IMG/VR virus record: IMGVR_UViG_3300021375_000214
Span: 1 to 20,237 of that record
DNA: 20,237 nt
DNA from: a virus
Reading direction: 5' to 3' (one strand)
Below are positions 2,156 through 14,126 of the stretch, piece by piece. Position 1 is the stretch's first letter; the number at the start of each line of letters is the position of its first letter. Made by a program: the position numbers and the translations under genes. The notes under the pieces are model-generated. The model saw only the letters and a list, made by a program, of their open reading frames with translations. It searched no databases and was not told the origin of the DNA.

Positions 2156-2835
2156 TTTTATTTGATGCAGACAGTTTAGTGTATTCTTCTTGCTGTGGTG
2201 TTGATGACATACTAGATGAAGCTATAGGAAAGTTTGATGAGATATTTATGTCAATTGTAAATAGACTAGAAGAAACCTACCAAATAGAAAGAGTAATTAC
2301 TTTTAACAATAGTAAGGGTAATTTTAGAAAACTACTAGACCCTAATTATAAAGCAAACAGAAAAAAGCAAGAACATCCTAAATTACTATATGAGATGCAC
2401 GAACATATCCAAGAGATATATAGCACAAAAAGTTCTTATGGTGTAGAGACAGATGATTTGGTTGCAACGTATTGGAAAACACTTACAGACGAGTTAGGAC
2501 ACAACAACGTAATAATAGTATCACTTGACAAAGATTATAAGCAACTACCTTGCCTTATGTATAACTATCACTACAAACACCAAGAGATAATAGATATAAG
2601 TCCTTACGAAGCCTTATATAACTTCTACGAGCAAATGATAGTAGGAGATAGTTCAGACAATGTAAACTACTGTAAGGGTTATGGAAAGGCATATGCAAAG
2701 AAATTGTTTAAAGATTGCAAGACACATTATCAATTTACTAAAAAGACATACGAGTTATTTAAAACAATATATAAATCAAAAGCAAAATTAAAATACATAC
2801 AATGTTATAACCTTTTAAAATTAAGAACAAAATGA
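2149..2835 (+). CDS. Phage 5'-3' exonuclease / flap endonuclease (PIN-like, FEN family)
   Basis: A 228-residue nuclease of the T5 D15 / T4 RNase H / Pol I 5'-nuclease family, expected to remove primers and flaps or degrade duplex DNA during phage replication. The acidic metal ligands are visible in order: D6 and D8 (LFDADSL), E100, D102 and D103 (VETDDL), D127 and D129 (SLDKDYKQL), and D167 and D170 (VGDSSDN). The segment DPNYKANR (64-71) matches the helical-arch entry (Y-K-x-N/x-R), and residues 164-187 (ending YCKGYGKAYAKKLF) form the helix-three-turn-helix DNA-binding element. The length is slightly short but nothing essential is missing. It overlaps both neighbours by a few bases and stands in a replication/nucleotide cassette. 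Confidence 0.88.
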   Translation: MVVLFDADSLVYSSCCGVDDILDEAIGKFDEIFMSIVNRLEETYQIERVITFNNSKGNFRKLLDPNYKANRKKQEHPKLLYEMHEHIQEIYSTKSSYGVETDDLVATYWKTLTDELGHNNVIIVSLDKDYKQLPCLMYNYHYKHQEIIDISPYEALYNFYEQMIVGDSSDNVNYCKGYGKAYAKKLFKDCKTHYQFTKKTYELFKTIYKSKAKLKYIQCYNLLKLRTK

Positions 2836-3050
2836 AAATAAAAACAAAAGACGAAATAGTTAGACAAGTAATAAGTAAAATAGACCAACGTAGTATTATA
2901 GGACAACAAAAATATGGAGGTACTATGATGGAAGAAATAAAAGGAGAAATAAAAGATGTAAATAGATTTGTAATAGATGTACAAGAAGAATTGATGGATG
3001 CTTTGTTATATTTAGAATCAGTTAAAGAATTATTAAAAGATAAATTATAA
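2832..3050 (+). CDS. Small MazG-like (all-alpha NTP pyrophosphatase type) protein
   Basis: A 72-residue all-helical protein. The pattern R-S-I-I-G-x-x-K-Y-G-G near residues 20-30 and VQEELMDALLYLE near 50-62 resemble the metal-binding EExxD region of MazG-like / phage nucleotide pyrophosphohydrolase proteins, which split dNTPs into dNMP and PPi. It is shorter than most of that superfamily and keeps one clear acidic pair (E52, E53 with D56), so catalytic activity is uncertain. It overlaps the exonuclease by ATGA and sits two bases ahead of the hydroxymethylase-like gene, which favours a role in dNTP pool control. I infer that it could be a dCTPase-type companion. Confidence 0.55.
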   Translation: MKIKTKDEIVRQVISKIDQRSIIGQQKYGGTMMEEIKGEIKDVNRFVIDVQEELMDALLYLESVKELLKDKL

Positions 3051-3051
3051 A

Positions 3052-3708
3052 ATGATTAAAACAATTTTTGAAAACGCAGAAGAAGCTTATGTTTATCAAC
3101 TTAATAGAATATTAGTTTATGGCGTAGACTATGATGATACAAAAGCTTTGTTTAATGTAGGTTTTACAATACAAAACCCTATAGATAATCATATTACAAA
3201 TAAAGAACGAAATTGGAGTTTACAATATGCTAAAGCTGAATGGGAATGGTATAAGTCTGGTGATCGTAGTATTGATAAGTTAGGTCAAATATATGGTAAA
3301 ATACCGCCTATATGGGAAAAAATGGCTGATAGTAATCGTAATGTTAATTCTAATTATGGTTATCAATGGCAACGTAATAATCAAATAGATTATGTATGCG
3401 CTAAACTTAGACAAAACAATAACACAAGGCAAGCAGCAATAAGTATATACGATGCGAAAGAATGGACTTCGTATCAAAAAGATACTCCTTGTACTTATGC
3501 AGTACAATTTACAATATTAGATAATAAATTAAATATGTCAGTTCTTATGCGTTCTAATGATATCTGGTATGGTTTTTGTAATGATCAATATCAATTTTCA
3601 ATGTTACAACAATTAGTTGCTAATAGGTTAACTATTGAAATAGGTTCTTATTACCATTTTGCACACAACTTACATTTATATAATAACATAAAAAATAAAA
3701 TAAAATGA
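3052..3708 (+). CDS. dCMP hydroxymethylase-like protein (thymidylate synthase fold)
   Basis: A 218-residue thymidylate synthase-fold enzyme. Visible family features are E63 in EWEWYKSGD (TS catalytic Glu), NSNYGYQW at 99-106, R126 (phosphate), nucleophile C147 in TPCTYAVQF, RSND at 167-170, G174, and H208/Y210 in the HLY motif. Three points favour cytosine over uracil substrates. The TS substrate Asn position is D178 (GFCND), as in T4 gp42. Cys is followed by Thr rather than the TS His. The NSNYG and MRSND..GF.ND strings closely match T4 gp42 as I remember it. The expected product is 5-hydroxymethyl-dCMP using methylene-folate. The protein stops about 25-30 residues early, so the C-terminal folate-closing tail is short or absent. 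Arg is often CGT here, unlike neighbouring genes. An ordinary TS or a dCMP methyltransferase remains possible. Confidence 0.72.
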   Translation: MIKTIFENAEEAYVYQLNRILVYGVDYDDTKALFNVGFTIQNPIDNHITNKERNWSLQYAKAEWEWYKSGDRSIDKLGQIYGKIPPIWEKMADSNRNVNSNYGYQWQRNNQIDYVCAKLRQNNNTRQAAISIYDAKEWTSYQKDTPCTYAVQFTILDNKLNMSVLMRSNDIWYGFCNDQYQFSMLQQLVANRLTIEIGSYYHFAHNLHLYNNIKNKIK

Positions 3709-4019
3709 AATTTAACGAAATAAGAAATTGGGCTAAAAACAAAGGCATATTAGATAAAGGAGATGTAAAAACACAATACATAAAACTTCAAGAGGAATGC
3801 GGCGAATTAGCAGAAGCAATATTAAAACAAGACAAGTTAGAAATGTCAGACGCGGTTGGAGATATTATTGTAGTATTAACTTCTTTATCAGAACTTGGAG
3901 GATTTAAAATAGAATCAGCAATAGAAGGCGCTTGGTTAGAAATAGCAAATAGAAAAGGGAAAATGATAAATAACAACTTTGTAAAAAATACAGATCATAT
4001 AATAGCAGGAACCGAATGA
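3705..4019 (+). CDS. MazG-type nucleotide pyrophosphohydrolase
   Basis: A 104-residue all-alpha NTP pyrophosphatase. It has the two-part metal site of the MazG family: EECGE (about 30-34) followed about 16 residues later by SDAVGD (48-53), with a helix (IIVVLTSLSEL) between this and a C-terminal ENxxxK-like region (EIANRKGKM). It would convert a dNTP to dNMP and pyrophosphate. Directly after the hydroxymethylase-like gene, with a four-base overlap, the natural inferred substrate is dCTP, supplying dCMP and keeping unmodified dCTP out of DNA. MazG proteins also act on dUTP, damaged nucleotides or (p)ppGpp, so specificity is not proven. The gene contains one of only four GATC sites and the only CAGG I found in the window. 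Confidence 0.8.
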   Translation: MKFNEIRNWAKNKGILDKGDVKTQYIKLQEECGELAEAILKQDKLEMSDAVGDIIVVLTSLSELGGFKIESAIEGAWLEIANRKGKMINNNFVKNTDHIIAGTE

Positions 4020-4435: not shown

Positions 4436-4662
4436 AAAAAAAAGATAAGGATTTAGTTAAAGAGTTTTACAACCTTGCATTATACGATTACGAAAAAGGT
4501 ACAGACTTAGAAGAACTAAAAATTATCTTAAATGATTATGAAGATAAAGAAATGTATTTACAATGTGCTGGTATTAATTTAGCTATACAATATATAGAAT
4601 TTTTAATATATTTAGAAATAATAAAACATATAAACGAAATAAATGACAACGCAACAAATTAA
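4432..4662 (+). CDS. Small acidic helical hypothetical protein (76 aa)
   Basis: A 76-residue, Lys/Glu-rich and largely helical protein (MKKKDKDLVKEFYNLALYDY...). A moderately hydrophobic stretch, INLAIQYIEFLIYLEII at about 48-64, is interrupted by Gln and Glu and is more like an amphipathic or buried helix than a membrane span. There is no recognisable domain. It overlaps the nuclease gene by four bases and the DnaA-like gene by twenty, so it belongs to the same operon. The function is unknown. Confidence 0.6.
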   Translation: MKKKDKDLVKEFYNLALYDYEKGTDLEELKIILNDYEDKEMYLQCAGINLAIQYIEFLIYLEIIKHINEINDNATN

Positions 4663-5113
4663 ACAATTGATAGAAACAGAACTAAACATAGAAATAAATG
4701 CTAAAAGTAGAAAAAGAAAAAATGTTTACGCTAGAGCTATATATTTTAAAATATGTAGAGACAGAACACATTTATCTTTAAAAGAAATAGGAGATACACT
4801 TAAATTAAATCACGCAACAGTATTACACGGTATTAATAACGTATTTCCTACATTTGAAATATATAATCCAGAGTATATGGAAGTATATAGAAAAATAAAA
4901 AATAGTGAAGAATACATACCTGTAGAAGATAGATACAATACATTAAAAGAAGACTACTATAAATTACAAAGTAAATACGATAGTATAAAAGACGCTAAAA
5001 CAAAAAAAGAATATAACTCTTTAGTTAAAATAATTAAAGAAATACCTGAAGAAAAACTAGACGTAGCTAACCTAAGAATAGATGCAATGGTTAAAATGCT
5101 TAAGACTTACTAA
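4643..5113 (+). CDS. DnaA domain IV-like DNA-binding protein
   Basis: A 156-residue protein whose residues about 23-67 resemble the DNA-binding domain IV of DnaA: a basic start (RKRKNVYARAIYFKICRD), then a helix-turn-helix (LSLKEIGDTLKLNHATVLHGI). The NHATVLHG string matches the DnaA signature DHTTVLHA. The AAA+ ATPase part of DnaA is missing; instead a Lys/Glu-rich coiled-coil region follows (about 95-156). It may bind DnaA-box-like sites in the phage origin or promoters, or compete with host DnaA. It ends the early block with a 59-base gap before the terminase genes. I did not find a clear TTATCCACA box in the window. Both of the CCTG sites I found lie in this gene. Confidence 0.72.
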   Translation: MTTQQIKQLIETELNIEINAKSRKRKNVYARAIYFKICRDRTHLSLKEIGDTLKLNHATVLHGINNVFPTFEIYNPEYMEVYRKIKNSEEYIPVEDRYNTLKEDYYKLQSKYDSIKDAKTKKEYNSLVKIIKEIPEEKLDVANLRIDAMVKMLKTY

Positions 5114-5418: not shown

Positions 5419-6581
5419 TGTTTGTAGTAACAACTGCAATTAAAAAACTTCTTAAACTTAAGAAACGTAAAAAGATAGTTCAAGGTGGAACATCTGCTGG
5501 TAAAACGTTTGGTATACTACCTATCCTCATAGATAGAGCTATAAAAACTCCTAACGTAGAAATAAGCGTAGTTAGTGAATCTATACCACATTTGCGTAGA
5601 GGTGCTTTAAAAGACTTCCTAAAGATTATGATGATGACCAATCGTTATAATGATATACAATACAATAAGTCAATGCTTAAGTATAAGTTTGCAAACGGAA
5701 GTTACATAGAGTTCTTTAGTGTTGAATCAGCAGACAAGTTAAGAGGAGCAAGAAGACACACACTATATGTAAATGAAGCTAACAACATACCTTACGAAGC
5801 ATACAACCAATTAGCAATAAGAACATCTGGAGAGATATGGATTGACTTTAACCCTACCTCATCATTCTGGGCGCATACAGAACTACAAGGCAAAGATGAT
5901 GCTGACTTTATAAAGCTAACGTATTTAGACAACGAAGCATTACCAGACACAATTATAAACGACATAGAGAAAGCTAAATACAAAGCAAAGACATCTACCT
6001 ATTGGAATAACTGGTGGAATGTTTACGGACTAGGAGAGATAGGAAGTTTAGAAGGTGCTTGTATAAAAGATTGGAAACCTATTGACTTACCAGACGAAGC
6101 AAGACTACTTTGTTATGGTATGGATTTTGGATATACTAATGACCCTTCTACTTTAATAGCACTTTACAAATACAACAACGCTTATATATTTGATGAGGTT
6201 ATTTACCAAAGAGGATTACTAAATAGTCAGATAAGCAACTTACTTAAAACACACCAAGCAAAAGAAATCATATATGCAGATTCAGCAGAACCTAAAAGTA
6301 TTGCAGAGTTATCAAGCTATGGTCATATGGTAATGCCAGTAAAGAAAGGTAAAGACTCAATAGTGTATGGTATCAACCTCATCAATCAAAATGAAATCTA
6401 TATAACTAATAGAAGTCATAACCTAATTAAAGAACTACAGAACTACATTTGGTTAAAAAACAAAGAAGGAGAAACACTTAACAAACCTATAGATGCTTTT
6501 AACCATTGTATTGATGCGATGAGGTATGCTATTACTTCACAATTAGAGAATCCTAATAAGGGTCAATATTACATTTACTAA
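5418..6581 (+). CDS. terL: Large terminase subunit (ATPase and nuclease)
   Basis: A 387-residue packaging motor protein. The N-terminal ATPase has Walker A QGGTSAGKT at 22-30 and Walker B TLYVNEA with E120 as catalytic Glu. A coupling-type motif may lie at 143-147 (DFNPT). The C-terminal RNase H-like nuclease shows D236 (GMDFGYTNDPST), D288 (YADSAEPKS) and D366 (HCIDAMRY). The Walker A in GGTSAGKT form and the DFGY-NDPST nuclease signature place it with the Terminase_3 / PBSX-SPP1 kind, suggesting headful packaging, though that inference is loose. The length is a little short but all catalytic parts are present. It overlaps terS by one base and is followed by a host-type promoter. Confidence 0.95.
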   Translation: MFVVTTAIKKLLKLKKRKKIVQGGTSAGKTFGILPILIDRAIKTPNVEISVVSESIPHLRRGALKDFLKIMMMTNRYNDIQYNKSMLKYKFANGSYIEFFSVESADKLRGARRHTLYVNEANNIPYEAYNQLAIRTSGEIWIDFNPTSSFWAHTELQGKDDADFIKLTYLDNEALPDTIINDIEKAKYKAKTSTYWNNWWNVYGLGEIGSLEGACIKDWKPIDLPDEARLLCYGMDFGYTNDPSTLIALYKYNNAYIFDEVIYQRGLLNSQISNLLKTHQAKEIIYADSAEPKSIAELSSYGHMVMPVKKGKDSIVYGINLINQNEIYITNRSHNLIKELQNYIWLKNKEGETLNKPIDAFNHCIDAMRYAITSQLENPNKGQYYIY

Positions 6582-6599
6582 AAAAAGTTATTAATAATT

Positions 6600-6629
6600 T
6601 TGTTAATTAAATAAATAGTTATATATTGC
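6600..6629 (+). promoter_or_regulatory. Bacteroidota-type promoter upstream of three small genes
   Basis: TTG at 6600-6602 and TATATTGC at 6622-6629 are separated by exactly 19 bases, the spacing of the Bacteroidota TTG-N19-TAnnTTTG promoter, with one mismatch in the -7 box. The site lies between terL and the ATG at 6652 in a region where flanking late genes lack this promoter type. It would let the host polymerase transcribe the small genes independently. Confidence 0.6.
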
Positions 6630-6651
6630 AGTATAATTAAACAACAAAACA

Positions 6652-6762
6652 ATGAAAAAACTAAAACACTACTTAACATTATCATTATTCTCATTTGTAT
6701 TATTAATTGCAAGTGTAGTATTATTATCTCTTGAATCTATTATACATAACTTAATATTTTAG
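6652..6762 (+). CDS. Small single-span membrane protein (36 aa)
   Basis: A 36-residue frame from ATG 6652 to TAG 6760-6762. The product is a short basic start (MKKLKHY), one hydrophobic helix (LTLSLFSFVLLIASVVLLSL) and a short tail ending ESIIHNLIF. It should insert in the inner membrane with the N-terminus inside. It follows a good host-type promoter by about 22 bases and precedes another small gene by two bases. Tiny membrane proteins expressed alone in a late region often act in superinfection exclusion or host-membrane modulation, but nothing in the sequence proves this; a non-coding leader is the alternative. Confidence 0.55.
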   Translation: MKKLKHYLTLSLFSFVLLIASVVLLSLESIIHNLIF

Positions 6763-6764
6763 AT

Positions 6765-6944
6765 ATGGTAGAGGTAAAACAAGGCGAAGTAATAGTAACA
6801 AAAAACAACACAACAAAAATATACACATTAAAAGAATACACAGATACAATATACTATAGAAAACTATATACAAGAATATATCAAATAATTTGTTTATTAG
6901 CTACTATGTTTATTCCAGCAATAATGATTAACTTGTTTAAATGA
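6765..6944 (+). CDS. Small C-terminally membrane-anchored protein (59 aa)
   Basis: A 59-residue frame from ATG 6765 to TGA 6942-6944. The first 38 residues are polar and tyrosine-rich (MVEVKQGEVIVTKNNTTKIY, then LYTRIY). The last 20 form one hydrophobic segment (IICLLATMFIPAIMINLF) ending in Lys. This predicts a cytoplasmic domain tethered by a C-terminal span. It overlaps the next gene by ATGA and follows the previous one by two bases, so three small genes form one transcription unit. The function is unknown. Confidence 0.6.
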   Translation: MVEVKQGEVIVTKNNTTKIYTLKEYTDTIYYRKLYTRIYQIICLLATMFIPAIMINLFK

Positions 6945-10084: not shown

Positions 10085-12154
10085 ATGAATTTAGAATTAT
10101 ATATAGATAATGTTAGAGTTGATTTATTTAAAGATGAAGCAATTACTCTTACTGACACACAACAAAACATTCGTGATATTGCTTTAGTGTTTACTCCTTT
10201 TAGTCAGCAGTTCAACTTACCAGCATCCTCTACTAACAATAAGATATTTAAGCATTACTACAACAACGATATAGTAAATGGATATGATGCTAGGTTTAGA
10301 GTAGATGCTATTATAAAACTAGATGGAGCAGATTTTAAAGTAGGCAAGATTAGATTAGATTCTGTATCTATGAAAAACAATAAAGCACACGCTTACAAGG
10401 TGGTGTTCTTTGGGAATACTTCAAGTCTTAAAGATATATTTGGAGATGAAACATTAAGCGCTTTAAATCCTTTAAATGCTTATGATATAAAATATAATAA
10501 TAGTGATGTTTTAAATGCTTTTAAAGATGGTTTACAAAGTACTGGATTAAAAGCTACTTCTACTGCTAACAGAAATATTACTTTGCCTTTAATCACTTTA
10601 CAAAACTATTATAGTTATGATTCTACAAACACAATAACTACACCTAACCTACATAATGTAAATTGGAATCTATTACAAAGAGAATTAAAACCAGCAATAA
10701 AATGCAAACGTATTATAGAAGCAATACAGACTCAATACAATATAGAGTTTAATATGGCAGATGAAACTGGTATAACAAGTTTTTTTGATAGTGATGTATT
10801 TGATGAATTGTATTTATGGCTACATAGAGAGAAAACACCTATAACAAATCCAGAAACTACTACACCTTTATTTGGTATTGATTTTCAACAAAGGTCAAGG
10901 AAATTAACATTTGCAGATTTTACATTTGTTTCTGGTGTTGATTATTTAAGTGGAGGTAATCTAGTAATAAGTGATGAATATAATTATTCAATTAGGTTAG
11001 TTTTAGATAGTAATGCTGGAGTTGAGTTAGAGATTATATCAATAGATAAACTTACAAACGAATTGTTGGATTATCAAACAAGAATAACACCACCTAGTAA
11101 TTACAATGTTACATTAAGAGATTTAGATAGTGGTACTTTGTCATCTAGAACTTATGATATAGAGTTTAGATTTAATACTCCAACAGTAGGAGTATTTGAT
11201 GCAGAAACAATGCTTATAACACGAACACTAAAAGATGGAACACCAGTAGATTCTGGTAACTATTCTTATAATGCTTTTAATTTAGAGCAAAATATATTTA
11301 TACAAGACTATATACCTAATATGAAAGTCCTTGACTTTATGACTACTTTGTTTAAGATGTTTAATTTAACTGCATATACTAAAAGGGGTTCTAGTAAAAT
11401 ATATGTAGAAACATTTGATGACTTTATGTCTACTGGCAATACTCACGATATTTCTAAATACATAGTTGTAGATTCTAACAATATAGACAGACCAATACCA
11501 TATTCAAGAATTAACTTTAATTATTCTACATCTGTTACGCAAACATCTTTAAGATACTTAAATCAGTTTAGCCAACAGTTTGGAAACCTTAACTATTCAG
11601 CACCAGAAAAATACGATGGTCAAAGCTATGATATACAAGTAGACGGACAACGTAGTCAATTAATAAACATAATTGATGAGAATGATGATTTGACTGGAAT
11701 TGTTTATGGTTGGTGGGTAGATGCCGAAAGTAAAACAACATTAGGTAGTCCGTATATGTTTTTCAATGATTTAATTGATGTAGCAGATTATCCAGTTACT
11801 TCTCTTGTAATAGAAGAATACAATGCGCCTTCTAATGTTAGTCCAGACAGAAATCATACTTTAAACTTTGGAATTGAGTATAACGAATATACTGGTAATG
11901 TAAATGAAAATAGTTTGTTCAATAGATTTTATTCTCAATACATAGTTAAGCTTTTTGAAGAACAAGCTAGAGTTGTAAAGTTTACTGCTCAATTACCCTC
12001 ATCAATAGTTTTAAATTATGAACTAAATGATGTGTTTATTGTAAACGGACAAGAGTACTTTATAAATAGCATAAGAACTAATTTGCTAACTAACAAAAGT
12101 GAATTGGAATTAATAACCAAACAAAGTGATTACACACCAAGCGTATTAACATAA
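10085..12154 (+). CDS. Large tail protein, possible tail-tip/hub component (689 aa)
   Basis: A 689-residue beta-rich protein beginning MNLELYIDNVRVDLFKDEAI. Its opening segment, with TPFSQQFNLPAS near residues 37-48, is one I associate with large conserved tail proteins of Bacteroidota phages. The long middle shows repeating strand patterns, and the end (NDVFIVNGQEYFINSIRTNL near 645-665) looks like a beta sandwich. It starts immediately after the previous stop. Position and size fit a tail-tip or hub protein, but I see no peptidase or lysozyme motif and cannot assign a specific role. Confidence 0.55.
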   Translation: MNLELYIDNVRVDLFKDEAITLTDTQQNIRDIALVFTPFSQQFNLPASSTNNKIFKHYYNNDIVNGYDARFRVDAIIKLDGADFKVGKIRLDSVSMKNNKAHAYKVVFFGNTSSLKDIFGDETLSALNPLNAYDIKYNNSDVLNAFKDGLQSTGLKATSTANRNITLPLITLQNYYSYDSTNTITTPNLHNVNWNLLQRELKPAIKCKRIIEAIQTQYNIEFNMADETGITSFFDSDVFDELYLWLHREKTPITNPETTTPLFGIDFQQRSRKLTFADFTFVSGVDYLSGGNLVISDEYNYSIRLVLDSNAGVELEIISIDKLTNELLDYQTRITPPSNYNVTLRDLDSGTLSSRTYDIEFRFNTPTVGVFDAETMLITRTLKDGTPVDSGNYSYNAFNLEQNIFIQDYIPNMKVLDFMTTLFKMFNLTAYTKRGSSKIYVETFDDFMSTGNTHDISKYIVVDSNNIDRPIPYSRINFNYSTSVTQTSLRYLNQFSQQFGNLNYSAPEKYDGQSYDIQVDGQRSQLINIIDENDDLTGIVYGWWVDAESKTTLGSPYMFFNDLIDVADYPVTSLVIEEYNAPSNVSPDRNHTLNFGIEYNEYTGNVNENSLFNRFYSQYIVKLFEEQARVVKFTAQLPSSIVLNYELNDVFIVNGQEYFINSIRTNLLTNKSELELITKQSDYTPSVLT

Positions 12155-12306
12155 TGATAGTAATAAAATTATTAAACATAGATGAGTTTTACGGAGTAAG
12201 TGAAACTATAGAAATAGCAAAAGGCAAAAACAAAATGCCAGAAACATTTAAAGAAGGATTCAAACAAATTAAAAGACATACAAAATGGCAGAAAAATACA
12301 AAATAG
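12154..12306 (+). CDS. Small hypothetical protein overlapping the tape measure (50 aa)
   Basis: A 50-residue frame whose ATG overlaps the previous stop (TAATG) and whose TAG at 12304-12306 lies 22 bases inside the tape measure gene. The product begins MIVIKLLNIDEFYGVSETIE and ends in a basic helix (KEGFKQIKRHTKWQKNTK). The double overlap fills the only gap in this part of the tail operon, which argues for a real gene. The function is unknown; a small tail assembly factor is possible. Confidence 0.55.
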   Translation: MIVIKLLNIDEFYGVSETIEIAKGKNKMPETFKEGFKQIKRHTKWQKNTK

Positions 12307-14126
12307 AATTTGAGGTAGATTCTAGTGGAGCAGTAAAAAATGTTGAAAAGGTAGACGATGCTTTAAAGGATACTGGTAAAACAGCCAAAAAGGAATTATC
12401 TGCAATTGAAAAAGGCGTAAAAAAAGTAGGTCAAGCTGGAAAGACTATTGCAAGTGGTGGTTTAAAAGCTATAGGTTTAGGTTTAAGAGGTATTGGTAAG
12501 GCTTATTTAGCTGCTGGTATAGGAATAATAGTATCTGGGTTTACATTTTTATATAATGCTTTAAAAGAGAATCAAGAAGTACTAGATACGTTTAATACTG
12601 TGTTTGAAACTTTATCTATTATTGGAAGTCAAGTCGCTGATGTTATAGTTAATGTTTATAAAAGTGTAGCAAGTGCTACAGAGAATTTTGATGCTTTAGG
12701 TAAAGTCATAAAAAGTTTATTAACTATTTCTATTACACCTTTAAAATTAGCTTTTGATGGAATTAGATTAGGTTTACTATCAGCACAATTAGCTTGGGAA
12801 GAATCCTTCTTTGGAGATGAAGACCCAGAAACAATTAAAAGACTTAATGAATCTATATTTGAAACAAAGCAAAGTCTAGCAGACACAGCCAATGAAGCTA
12901 TATCTGCTGGTAAAAGTATTGTTACAAATTTTGGAGAAGCAGTTACAGAAATTGGTAATATATCAAAACAAGTAATTGAAGGAGTTAAAGACATAAGTAT
13001 TGAAGCTGCAATTGAAACTGCAAAAACAAATGTAGCATTAAAGAAATCTGCTGAATTAGCAAGAGTTGAAAATCAAGGGTTAATTGAGCAATATGACAGA
13101 CAAGCCGAACAACAAAGACAAATAAGAGATAATGATTTAATTTCTATTGAACAAAGAATAGTAGCTAATGATAAACTTAAAGCCACATTAGAAGAACAAG
13201 AAAAATTAATGCTTGAAAATGCTCGTTTAATACAAGCATCTGCACAAGCACAATTTGATAAAAATGCAAGTGATGAAAACGCATTAATATTAGCTGAAGC
13301 TAAAAATGAAGTTAAAGCTGTAGAAGCACAGATTGAAGGCTTTATGTCTGAACAAGAATCTAACAGAGTTGCTTTATTAAAAGAAAAAATAGAACTAGAT
13401 TTAGTAAATGATGAAGCTACTGCAATTAGGCAAAACGAACAAAGATTGTTTGAAGCAGAAATGGATGAAAACGCTGTTACTAGATTACAAACTACTTTAG
13501 CAAATTTAAAAGCAGAAGAAGAAGCTGAAACATTAAGGCTTAAAAACAAAAGAGATAACTTTGAACAAGGTACACAATCTTATATAGATGCTAACAATGA
13601 ATTATTAGATTATCAACAAGCAAACGCTAATCAACAAGTTAAAATAGAAAAGGAATTAGCAGAAGCAAAACAAGCTCAAATCAAACAAACATTAGGAGAT
13701 ATAGCAAACATAGTTGGTCAAAATTCTAAATTCGGTAAATCTATTGCTATAGTACAAGCAATACAAGATACGTTTGCTGGAGCAAATAAAGCTCTTTCAC
13801 AAGGAGGATTATTTGGATTTGTAGGTGCAGCATCAATAATTGCTACTGGTATAAGAAACGTTAAACAAATAGCATCAACTAAACCACCAGAGCCACCAGC
13901 TGGATTAAGAGGTGGAGGAGCAAGTACTTCTGTGGCAACACCAAGTATTCCAACACCTACTGCACCACAAACACCATCGTTTGATATATTAGGTACAAGT
14001 ACAACAAACCAAATAGCTTCTGCATTAGGACAACAAGCACCAGTACAAGCATTTGTTGTGAGTCAAGATGTTACAACTGCACAAAGCTTACAAAACAATA
14101 TAGTACAAGGAGCATCACTAGGATAA
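12285..14126 (+). CDS. Tail tape measure protein (613 aa)
   Basis: A 613-residue protein that should set tail length and pass into the cell envelope at injection. After a short N-terminal beta segment (KYKIEFEVDSSGAVKNVEKV) comes a Gly/Lys helical region and a hydrophobic stretch at about 72-92 (KAYLAAGIGIIVSGFTFLYNA). The centre (about 240-490) is a long Gln/Glu/Ala coiled coil. A second hydrophobic segment (about 505-530, GGLFGFVGAASIIATGI) is followed by a Pro/Thr/Ser/Gly linker and the ending VQAFVVSQDVTTAQSLQNNI, an ending I associate with flavobacterial tape measures. At about 1.5 Å per residue it predicts a tail near 90 nm. No lysozyme or peptidase domain is visible. Confidence 0.85.
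   Translation: MAEKYKIEFEVDSSGAVKNVEKVDDALKDTGKTAKKELSAIEKGVKKVGQAGKTIASGGLKAIGLGLRGIGKAYLAAGIGIIVSGFTFLYNALKENQEVLDTFNTVFETLSIIGSQVADVIVNVYKSVASATENFDALGKVIKSLLTISITPLKLAFDGIRLGLLSAQLAWEESFFGDEDPETIKRLNESIFETKQSLADTANEAISAGKSIVTNFGEAVTEIGNISKQVIEGVKDISIEAAIETAKTNVALKKSAELARVENQGLIEQYDRQAEQQRQIRDNDLISIEQRIVANDKLKATLEEQEKLMLENARLIQASAQAQFDKNASDENALILAEAKNEVKAVEAQIEGFMSEQESNRVALLKEKIELDLVNDEATAIRQNEQRLFEAEMDENAVTRLQTTLANLKAEEEAETLRLKNKRDNFEQGTQSYIDANNELLDYQQANANQQVKIEKELAEAKQAQIKQTLGDIANIVGQNSKFGKSIAIVQAIQDTFAGANKALSQGGLFGFVGAASIIATGIRNVKQIASTKPPEPPAGLRGGGASTSVATPSIPTPTAPQTPSFDILGTSTTNQIASALGQQAPVQAFVVSQDVTTAQSLQNNIVQGASLG

Follow-up and report, generated by a model that had tools for sequence, protein, structure and literature searches.

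Does the thymidylate synthase-like gene at positions 3052 to 3708 of a small marine phage make 5-hydroxymethyl-dCMP, and would 5-hydroxymethylcytosine (5hmC) then reach the DNA of that phage? The answer is probably that the phage DNA carries altered cytosines, which would help the phage to escape host defences. The window (the whole stretch of DNA that was analysed) is a viral record of 20,237 bp with a G+C content of 30.6%. Over 20,234 bases it is 99.98% identical to part of an IMG/VR contig of 28,963 bp (G001), which therefore probably covers most of this phage. The gene is surrounded by closely packed rightward genes with 4-bp overlaps: an exonuclease gene (ending at 2835), a gene for a 72-amino-acid (aa) protein (2832 to 3050), the candidate dCMP hydroxymethylase gene (dCH; 3052 to 3708), a MazG gene (3705 to 4019), and an open reading frame (ORF) starting at 4016. 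The coordinates, reading frames, and overlaps of at most four bases given in a preliminary description of the locus were borne out by an ORF check, with a single 1-bp gap between the 72-aa gene and dCH.

Substrate and product of the enzyme encoded at 3052 to 3708

The 218-aa product of dCH (plus strand) indeed belongs to the thymidylate synthase (TS) fold family, as had been claimed, with matches to PF00303 in Pfam (E = 3e-24) and to PHROG 160, thymidylate synthase (E = 8e-39). Its top PDB matches were T4 gp42, the deoxycytidylate hydroxymethylase (1b49, E = 1.8e-18), and the CMP hydroxymethylase MilA (5b6d, E = 5e-18), both ahead of any thymidylate synthase. In T4 numbering, the published marks of dCMP hydroxymethylases are Glu60, Ser94, Tyr96, Cys148 with Asp145 three positions ahead of it, and Asp179, together with the absence of the C-terminal tail (PMC6400193). 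Asp145 and Ser94/Tyr96 distinguish hydroxymethylation from methylation (PMC6400193) and hence inform on both product and substrate.

The protein was aligned with T4 gp42, E. coli ThyA, and the dUMP enzymes of Vi01 and SPO1, taken from annotated records as controls, and all the signature residues were present. Asp178 (codons Asn177-Asp178, 3580 to 3585), at the place of the cytosine-selecting T4 Asp179, occupies the position of Asn177 in E. coli TS. The nucleophilic Cys147 is followed by Thr148, which replaces the His of TS, and preceded by the water-activating Asp144, the counterpart of T4 Asp145 at the place where an Asp or Glu is expected (Asp144-Thr-Pro-Cys147-Thr148, 3481 to 3495; T4 roles from PMC6400193). 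Ser100-Asn101-Tyr102 (3349 to 3357) corresponds to the Ser(or Thr)-x-Tyr signature of T4 Ser94/Tyr96, and Glu63 (3238 to 3240) corresponds to T4 Glu60, which activates methylene-tetrahydrofolate (methylene-THF) (PMC6400193). A TS-like C-terminal tail is missing, with the stop 8 residues past HLY, and close relatives are alike in this respect. At the selecting position, Asn was found in E. coli TS and, as expected, in the Vi01 and SPO1 dUMP enzymes (the two dUMP enzymes nevertheless keep an Asp at the place of T4 Asp145), and Asp was found in T4, ATCCB, and VPE25; the latter two Asp-type enzymes have annotated beta-glucosyltransferases close by. In a genome-phenome study of modified-cytosine contigs, no residue differences ranked higher than those at positions 177 (Asn to Asp) and 147 (PMC8670742).

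The dCH gene is real and under strong purifying selection, with a dN/dS of 0.06 to 0.17 in comparisons with its relatives. Among 80 viral relatives (66 to 100% identical), GFCND was found in all 80, and the stop fell within a few residues of HLYN in nearly all. In a more divergent set (alignment A3; n = 29, down to 42% identity), Glu63, Ser100, Tyr102, Cys147, Thr148, and Asp178 were invariant and Asp144 was nearly so. The motifs listed in the preliminary description (C147-T148, N177-D178 within GFCND, NSNYG, and MRSND) were all found and are conserved, with Asp rather than Asn at the substrate position in the alignment to T4 gp42, the SPO1 dUMP enzyme, and TS.

An ordinary thymidylate synthase making dTMP would share the fold, and many phage records annotate relatives of dCH in this way, but the changes of Asn177 to Asp and of His147 to Thr, the missing folate-closing C terminus, and the presence of the water-activating Asp make this identity extremely improbable, and it was rejected on these residues. 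MilA shares the cytosine-selecting Asp and the Cys-Thr motif; it differs in its preference for CMP and in a large extra C-terminal region. Lys133 and Ala176 of MilA are tied to ribose preference (PMC5175136), and the window enzyme has Arg126 and Ser168 at these places, as in dCMP enzymes; dCMP rather than CMP is therefore the predicted substrate, and a CMP hydroxymethylase was likewise rejected.

A rival reading of the product is a dCMP methylase as in phage Xp12, in which Asp178 would select cytosine and hydride transfer would yield 5-methyl-dCMP and DNA with 5-methylcytosine. According to work cited in PMC8670742, the single Asn-to-Asp change by itself converts thymidylate synthase to a dCMP methylase. 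However, the published features that set hydroxymethylation apart from methylation are all there (Asp144, Ser100/Tyr102, and no C-terminal tail), and we regard the methylase as quite unlikely. Judged by its residues, the product of 3052 to 3708 is very probably a dCMP 5-hydroxymethylase. The earlier reading as such an enzyme is thus strongly supported, to which the roles of Asp144 and Ser100/Tyr102, the Arg126/Ser168 pair, and the missing tail have been added.

The enzyme would work like T4 gp42. Cys147 would attack C6 of dCMP, Asp178 would hold and protonate the cytosine, and methylene-THF would give the carbon; a water activated by Asp144 and held with Ser100 and Tyr102 would then add the hydroxyl group, replacing the hydride transfer of thymidylate synthase, with 5-hydroxymethyl-dCMP as the predicted product. 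The window enzyme resembles gp42 in its fold, in all catalytic and cytosine-selecting residues, and in having no TS-like tail, whereas it is 28 residues shorter, ending approximately 20 residues earlier when counted after the shared HxY motif. One of the two phosphate-binding Arg residues, T4 Arg124, is Gln127 in the window enzyme, as it is Gln in the dUMP enzymes; the window enzyme also has no equivalent of T4 Arg220, a residue in contact with the water network at the cofactor. The closest isolate protein found was a deoxycytidylate hydroxymethyltransferase of Bacteroides phage BF486P2, 45% identical over 98% of the length and also with a short C terminus (226 aa). Unlike the window phage, BF486P2 has two copies on either side of a dUTPase gene, and clustering of the genes at its locus yielded no relative either of the MazG of the window or of the pyridoxal phosphate (PLP) enzyme gene described below. 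The two dCMP-hydroxymethylase-type genes of BF486P2 (L082:9171-9932 and 12004-12684, with dut between) include one that is far diverged and has an LPYDAF motif.

Neighbouring genes and the supply of nucleotides

Two pyrophosphohydrolase-like genes had been described as flanking dCH, in the manner of a dCTPase companion; this held for the downstream gene only. The 104-aa product of 3705 to 4019 (plus strand) is a MazG-type nucleoside triphosphate pyrophosphohydrolase by its match to PF03819 (E = 1.3e-8, 35.4 bits with a cut-off of 22) and a weak match to PF01503 (E = 7e-4). It has the EExxE metal motif as EECGE (residues 30 to 34) and a second motif, DAVGD, which reads D-x-x-G-D in relatives. 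The dN/dS of the gene was approximately 0.015. MazG lies directly downstream of dCH in 77 of the 80 viral loci, and the other three contigs end within approximately 0.8 kb; the adjacency occurs in two phage backbones, of approximately 30 and 66 kb. In phages of the 66-kb type, MazG is a domain of a protein of approximately 258 aa that also matches T5orf172 weakly at its N terminus (L054:9412-10185), and ribonucleotide reductase genes follow downstream. Thymidylate synthase domains co-occur with the MazG-related PF01503 in modified-cytosine contigs (PMC8670742). The window MazG clade also matched 1,090 phage records, the majority from phages of Streptococcus and Staphylococcus, a spread which indicates that the clade is not specific to modification and is common too in phages with no known modification. 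Its position and family make the downstream MazG a plausible dCTPase companion of dCH.

The upstream 72-aa gene (2832 to 3050, plus strand) adjoins the dCH/MazG pair in both phage types, and its family was present in 68 of the loci compared, the window included. Its protein had no Pfam, NCBIfam, or PDB match and matched only function-unknown families in PHROG (PHROG 11184, E = 8e-5). When its profile was compared with those of MazG and DUF6378, the hhalign probability was below 4%, a weak negative given the shallow profiles. The assignment of this gene as MazG-like or as a pyrophosphohydrolase is thus unsupported. The 72-aa and MazG proteins had weak to moderate matches in Flavobacterium phages, which are no more than a hint that the host of the window phage is probably Flavobacteria-like.

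The partnership recalls T4 gp42 and the dCTPase gp56, a nucleotide pyrophosphohydrolase, with the difference that in the window the two genes are directly adjacent. MazG would probably hydrolyse dCTP to dCMP, thereby supplying the substrate and lowering the amount of competing dCTP. Unlike in T4 (169 kb), neither a gp1-type kinase nor a glucosyltransferase came to light in the window phage, as read from its contig of approximately 29 kb. The T4 gp1-type dNMP kinase family (PF21448) was absent from nine viral records (the window phage and eight related records), with a positive T4 control; neither a DNA polymerase nor a glycosyltransferase was recognised when the ORFs of G001 were read by eye, and no amino acid:DNA transferase (ADDT) match was found in the 28,963-bp contig. 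Further processing of 5hmC by genes outside the window, such as a glycosyltransferase, as the preliminary description had proposed, thus finds no support in the 28,963 bp known of this phage, although its nearest relatives do have candidate genes of this type (see below). With no T4-type kinase found and no polymerase recognised, host enzymes would have to phosphorylate and incorporate the hydroxymethyl-dCMP, and this, which we infer, is the weakest step of the explanation. Host kinases and the host DNA polymerase would put hydroxymethyl-dCTP into phage DNA, whereupon many restriction enzymes would be blocked.

A different outcome of the same chemistry is that hydroxymethyl-dCMP is made and little or none of it enters DNA in a phage with no kinase of its own, the enzyme serving instead to redirect or deplete the dCMP/dCTP pool of the host during infection. 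The missing T4-type dNMP kinase and the unrecognised DNA polymerase would fit such a role, and the MazG partner might itself drain dCTP. On the other hand, dCH of close relatives lies beside a PLP enzyme and an ADDT-fold protein (see below), an arrangement that is most sensible if hydroxymethylcytosine reaches DNA or a nucleotide acceptor, and we consider pool draining unlikely. The explanation as a whole, i.e., a gp42-like dCMP 5-hydroxymethylase, a MazG dCTPase, host kinases and polymerase, and 5hmC in phage DNA, appears probable to us, and the presence of 5hmC in virion DNA, taken by itself, is somewhat favoured. It would place dCMP hydroxymethylation in phages of approximately 30 kb that have none of the T4 support genes, and it prompts the question of how hydroxymethyl-dCMP gains its phosphates and enters DNA. 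The window also encodes, at 4643 to 5113, a protein with a DnaA C-terminal DNA-binding domain (Bac_DnaA_C, E = 6.5e-12), which may possibly have an origin-binding role in this phage with no recognised polymerase.

A four-gene cassette in close relatives

In nine loci with a dCH 88 to 94% identical to that of the window, four genes stand in place of the 72-aa gene, encoding a DUF6378 protein, proteins of 315 and 303 aa, and a PLP-dependent enzyme of the PALP family; the cassette lies directly upstream of dCH (e.g., L009:7038-10001; also L003 and L105-L165). One of these relatives (G003; 30,604 bp) has a 127-bp direct terminal repeat, so its genome is probably complete, and it is nearly gene-for-gene like the window phage otherwise, except for a gene stretch in the tail-fibre/lysis region. 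A search with the 303-aa protein retrieved 65 contigs, of which 62 also had the PLP enzyme, 58 the 315-aa protein, 56 dCH, and 50 MazG, nearly always in the same order.

AlphaFold gave good models of the 303-aa and 315-aa proteins (pLDDT 87.5 and 89.3, respectively). With Foldseek against BFVD, the 303-aa model matched viral proteins that carry an amino acid:DNA transferase annotation (E = 3.7e-9, TM 0.79) and, more weakly, pyrophosphorylase-clade and 5-hydroxymethyldeoxyuridine (5-hmdU)-kinase helical proteins. This lead comes from the viral structure library only; sequence searches against Pfam, PHROG, the PDB, and named phages gave nothing useful for the protein, and its fold matched none in the PDB. 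The Pfam ADDT family PF18724 had no sequence match in the cassette phages, although Vi01 did match, and sequence-profile alignment also gave none. The fold of the 315-aa model resembles that of SGNH hydrolases, and a GDS motif is invariant in this protein, which has sequence relatives in phages of Stenotrophomonas and Tenacibaculum and in T4-like phages of Aeromonas.

Thymidine hypermodification involves PLP enzymes, and the relatives resemble that route (ViI, M6, phiW-14) in pairing a hydroxymethylase with a PLP enzyme and an ADDT-fold protein. They differ from it in that the base would be cytosine, in the inclusion of the SGNH-fold and DUF6378 proteins, and in that the 5-hmdU DNA kinase helical domain (PF18723) was not found in the cassette phages, with a positive Vi01 control; the window phage itself has none of the PLP, ADDT-fold, SGNH-fold, and DUF6378 genes. 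In thymidine hypermodification, 5hmdU in DNA is first phosphorylated by a kinase, and amino acid:DNA transferases take part (PMC6449724, PMC11955845). Carbamoyloxymethyl- and carboxymethylcytosine are known cytosine hypermodifications (PMC8670742, PMC12783734), and no cytosine route with an amino acid:DNA transferase and a PLP enzyme was found in the literature searched. The cassette looks like an uncharacterised 5hmC-decorating route, which the window phage does not carry. We tentatively propose, at somewhat less than even chances, that the six-gene operon (DUF6378, SGNH-fold, ADDT-fold, PLP enzyme, dCH, and MazG) could put an amino-acid-derived group on 5hmC with no 5-hmdU DNA kinase, and that the window phage would be a natural variant in which these four genes for decoration are absent and 5hmC stays unadorned.

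In a quick dCH tree, the cassette label changed only three times and the window gene was placed, with strong support, among cassette-bearing relatives, which fits a recent loss or replacement of the cassette in the window phage. The sets in the tree were fetched by different searches, so that a claim of an ancestral cassette is biased by sampling, and we do not rely on it. Whereas the window enzyme is of a known kind, the operon of its relatives is the more interesting lead for specialists, and the paired relatives, one backbone with or without four genes, offer a clean comparison for discovering cytosine hypermodification, useful for restriction biology and DNA-modification chemistry.

Relatives of the 315-aa SGNH-fold protein were present in 43 phage records, mostly of Aeromonas T4-like phages, and in Aeromonas phage 25 the gene lies near motA (L167:8989-10035); the protein of these phages is a candidate for an uncharacterised modification of hydroxymethylcytosine. 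Relatives of the PLP enzyme were found in Erythrobacter and Microcystis phages inside genes annotated as DNA modification methylase (L168:6001-6813 and L169:6998-7708), in one of the two beside two ParB/sulfiredoxin genes. One contig of 76,964 bp (G018) has dCH copies at 6351 to 6902 and 72614 to 73090, near its two ends (L043 and L047, which are one contig); the pair may represent an over-assembled terminal redundancy rather than a true duplication.
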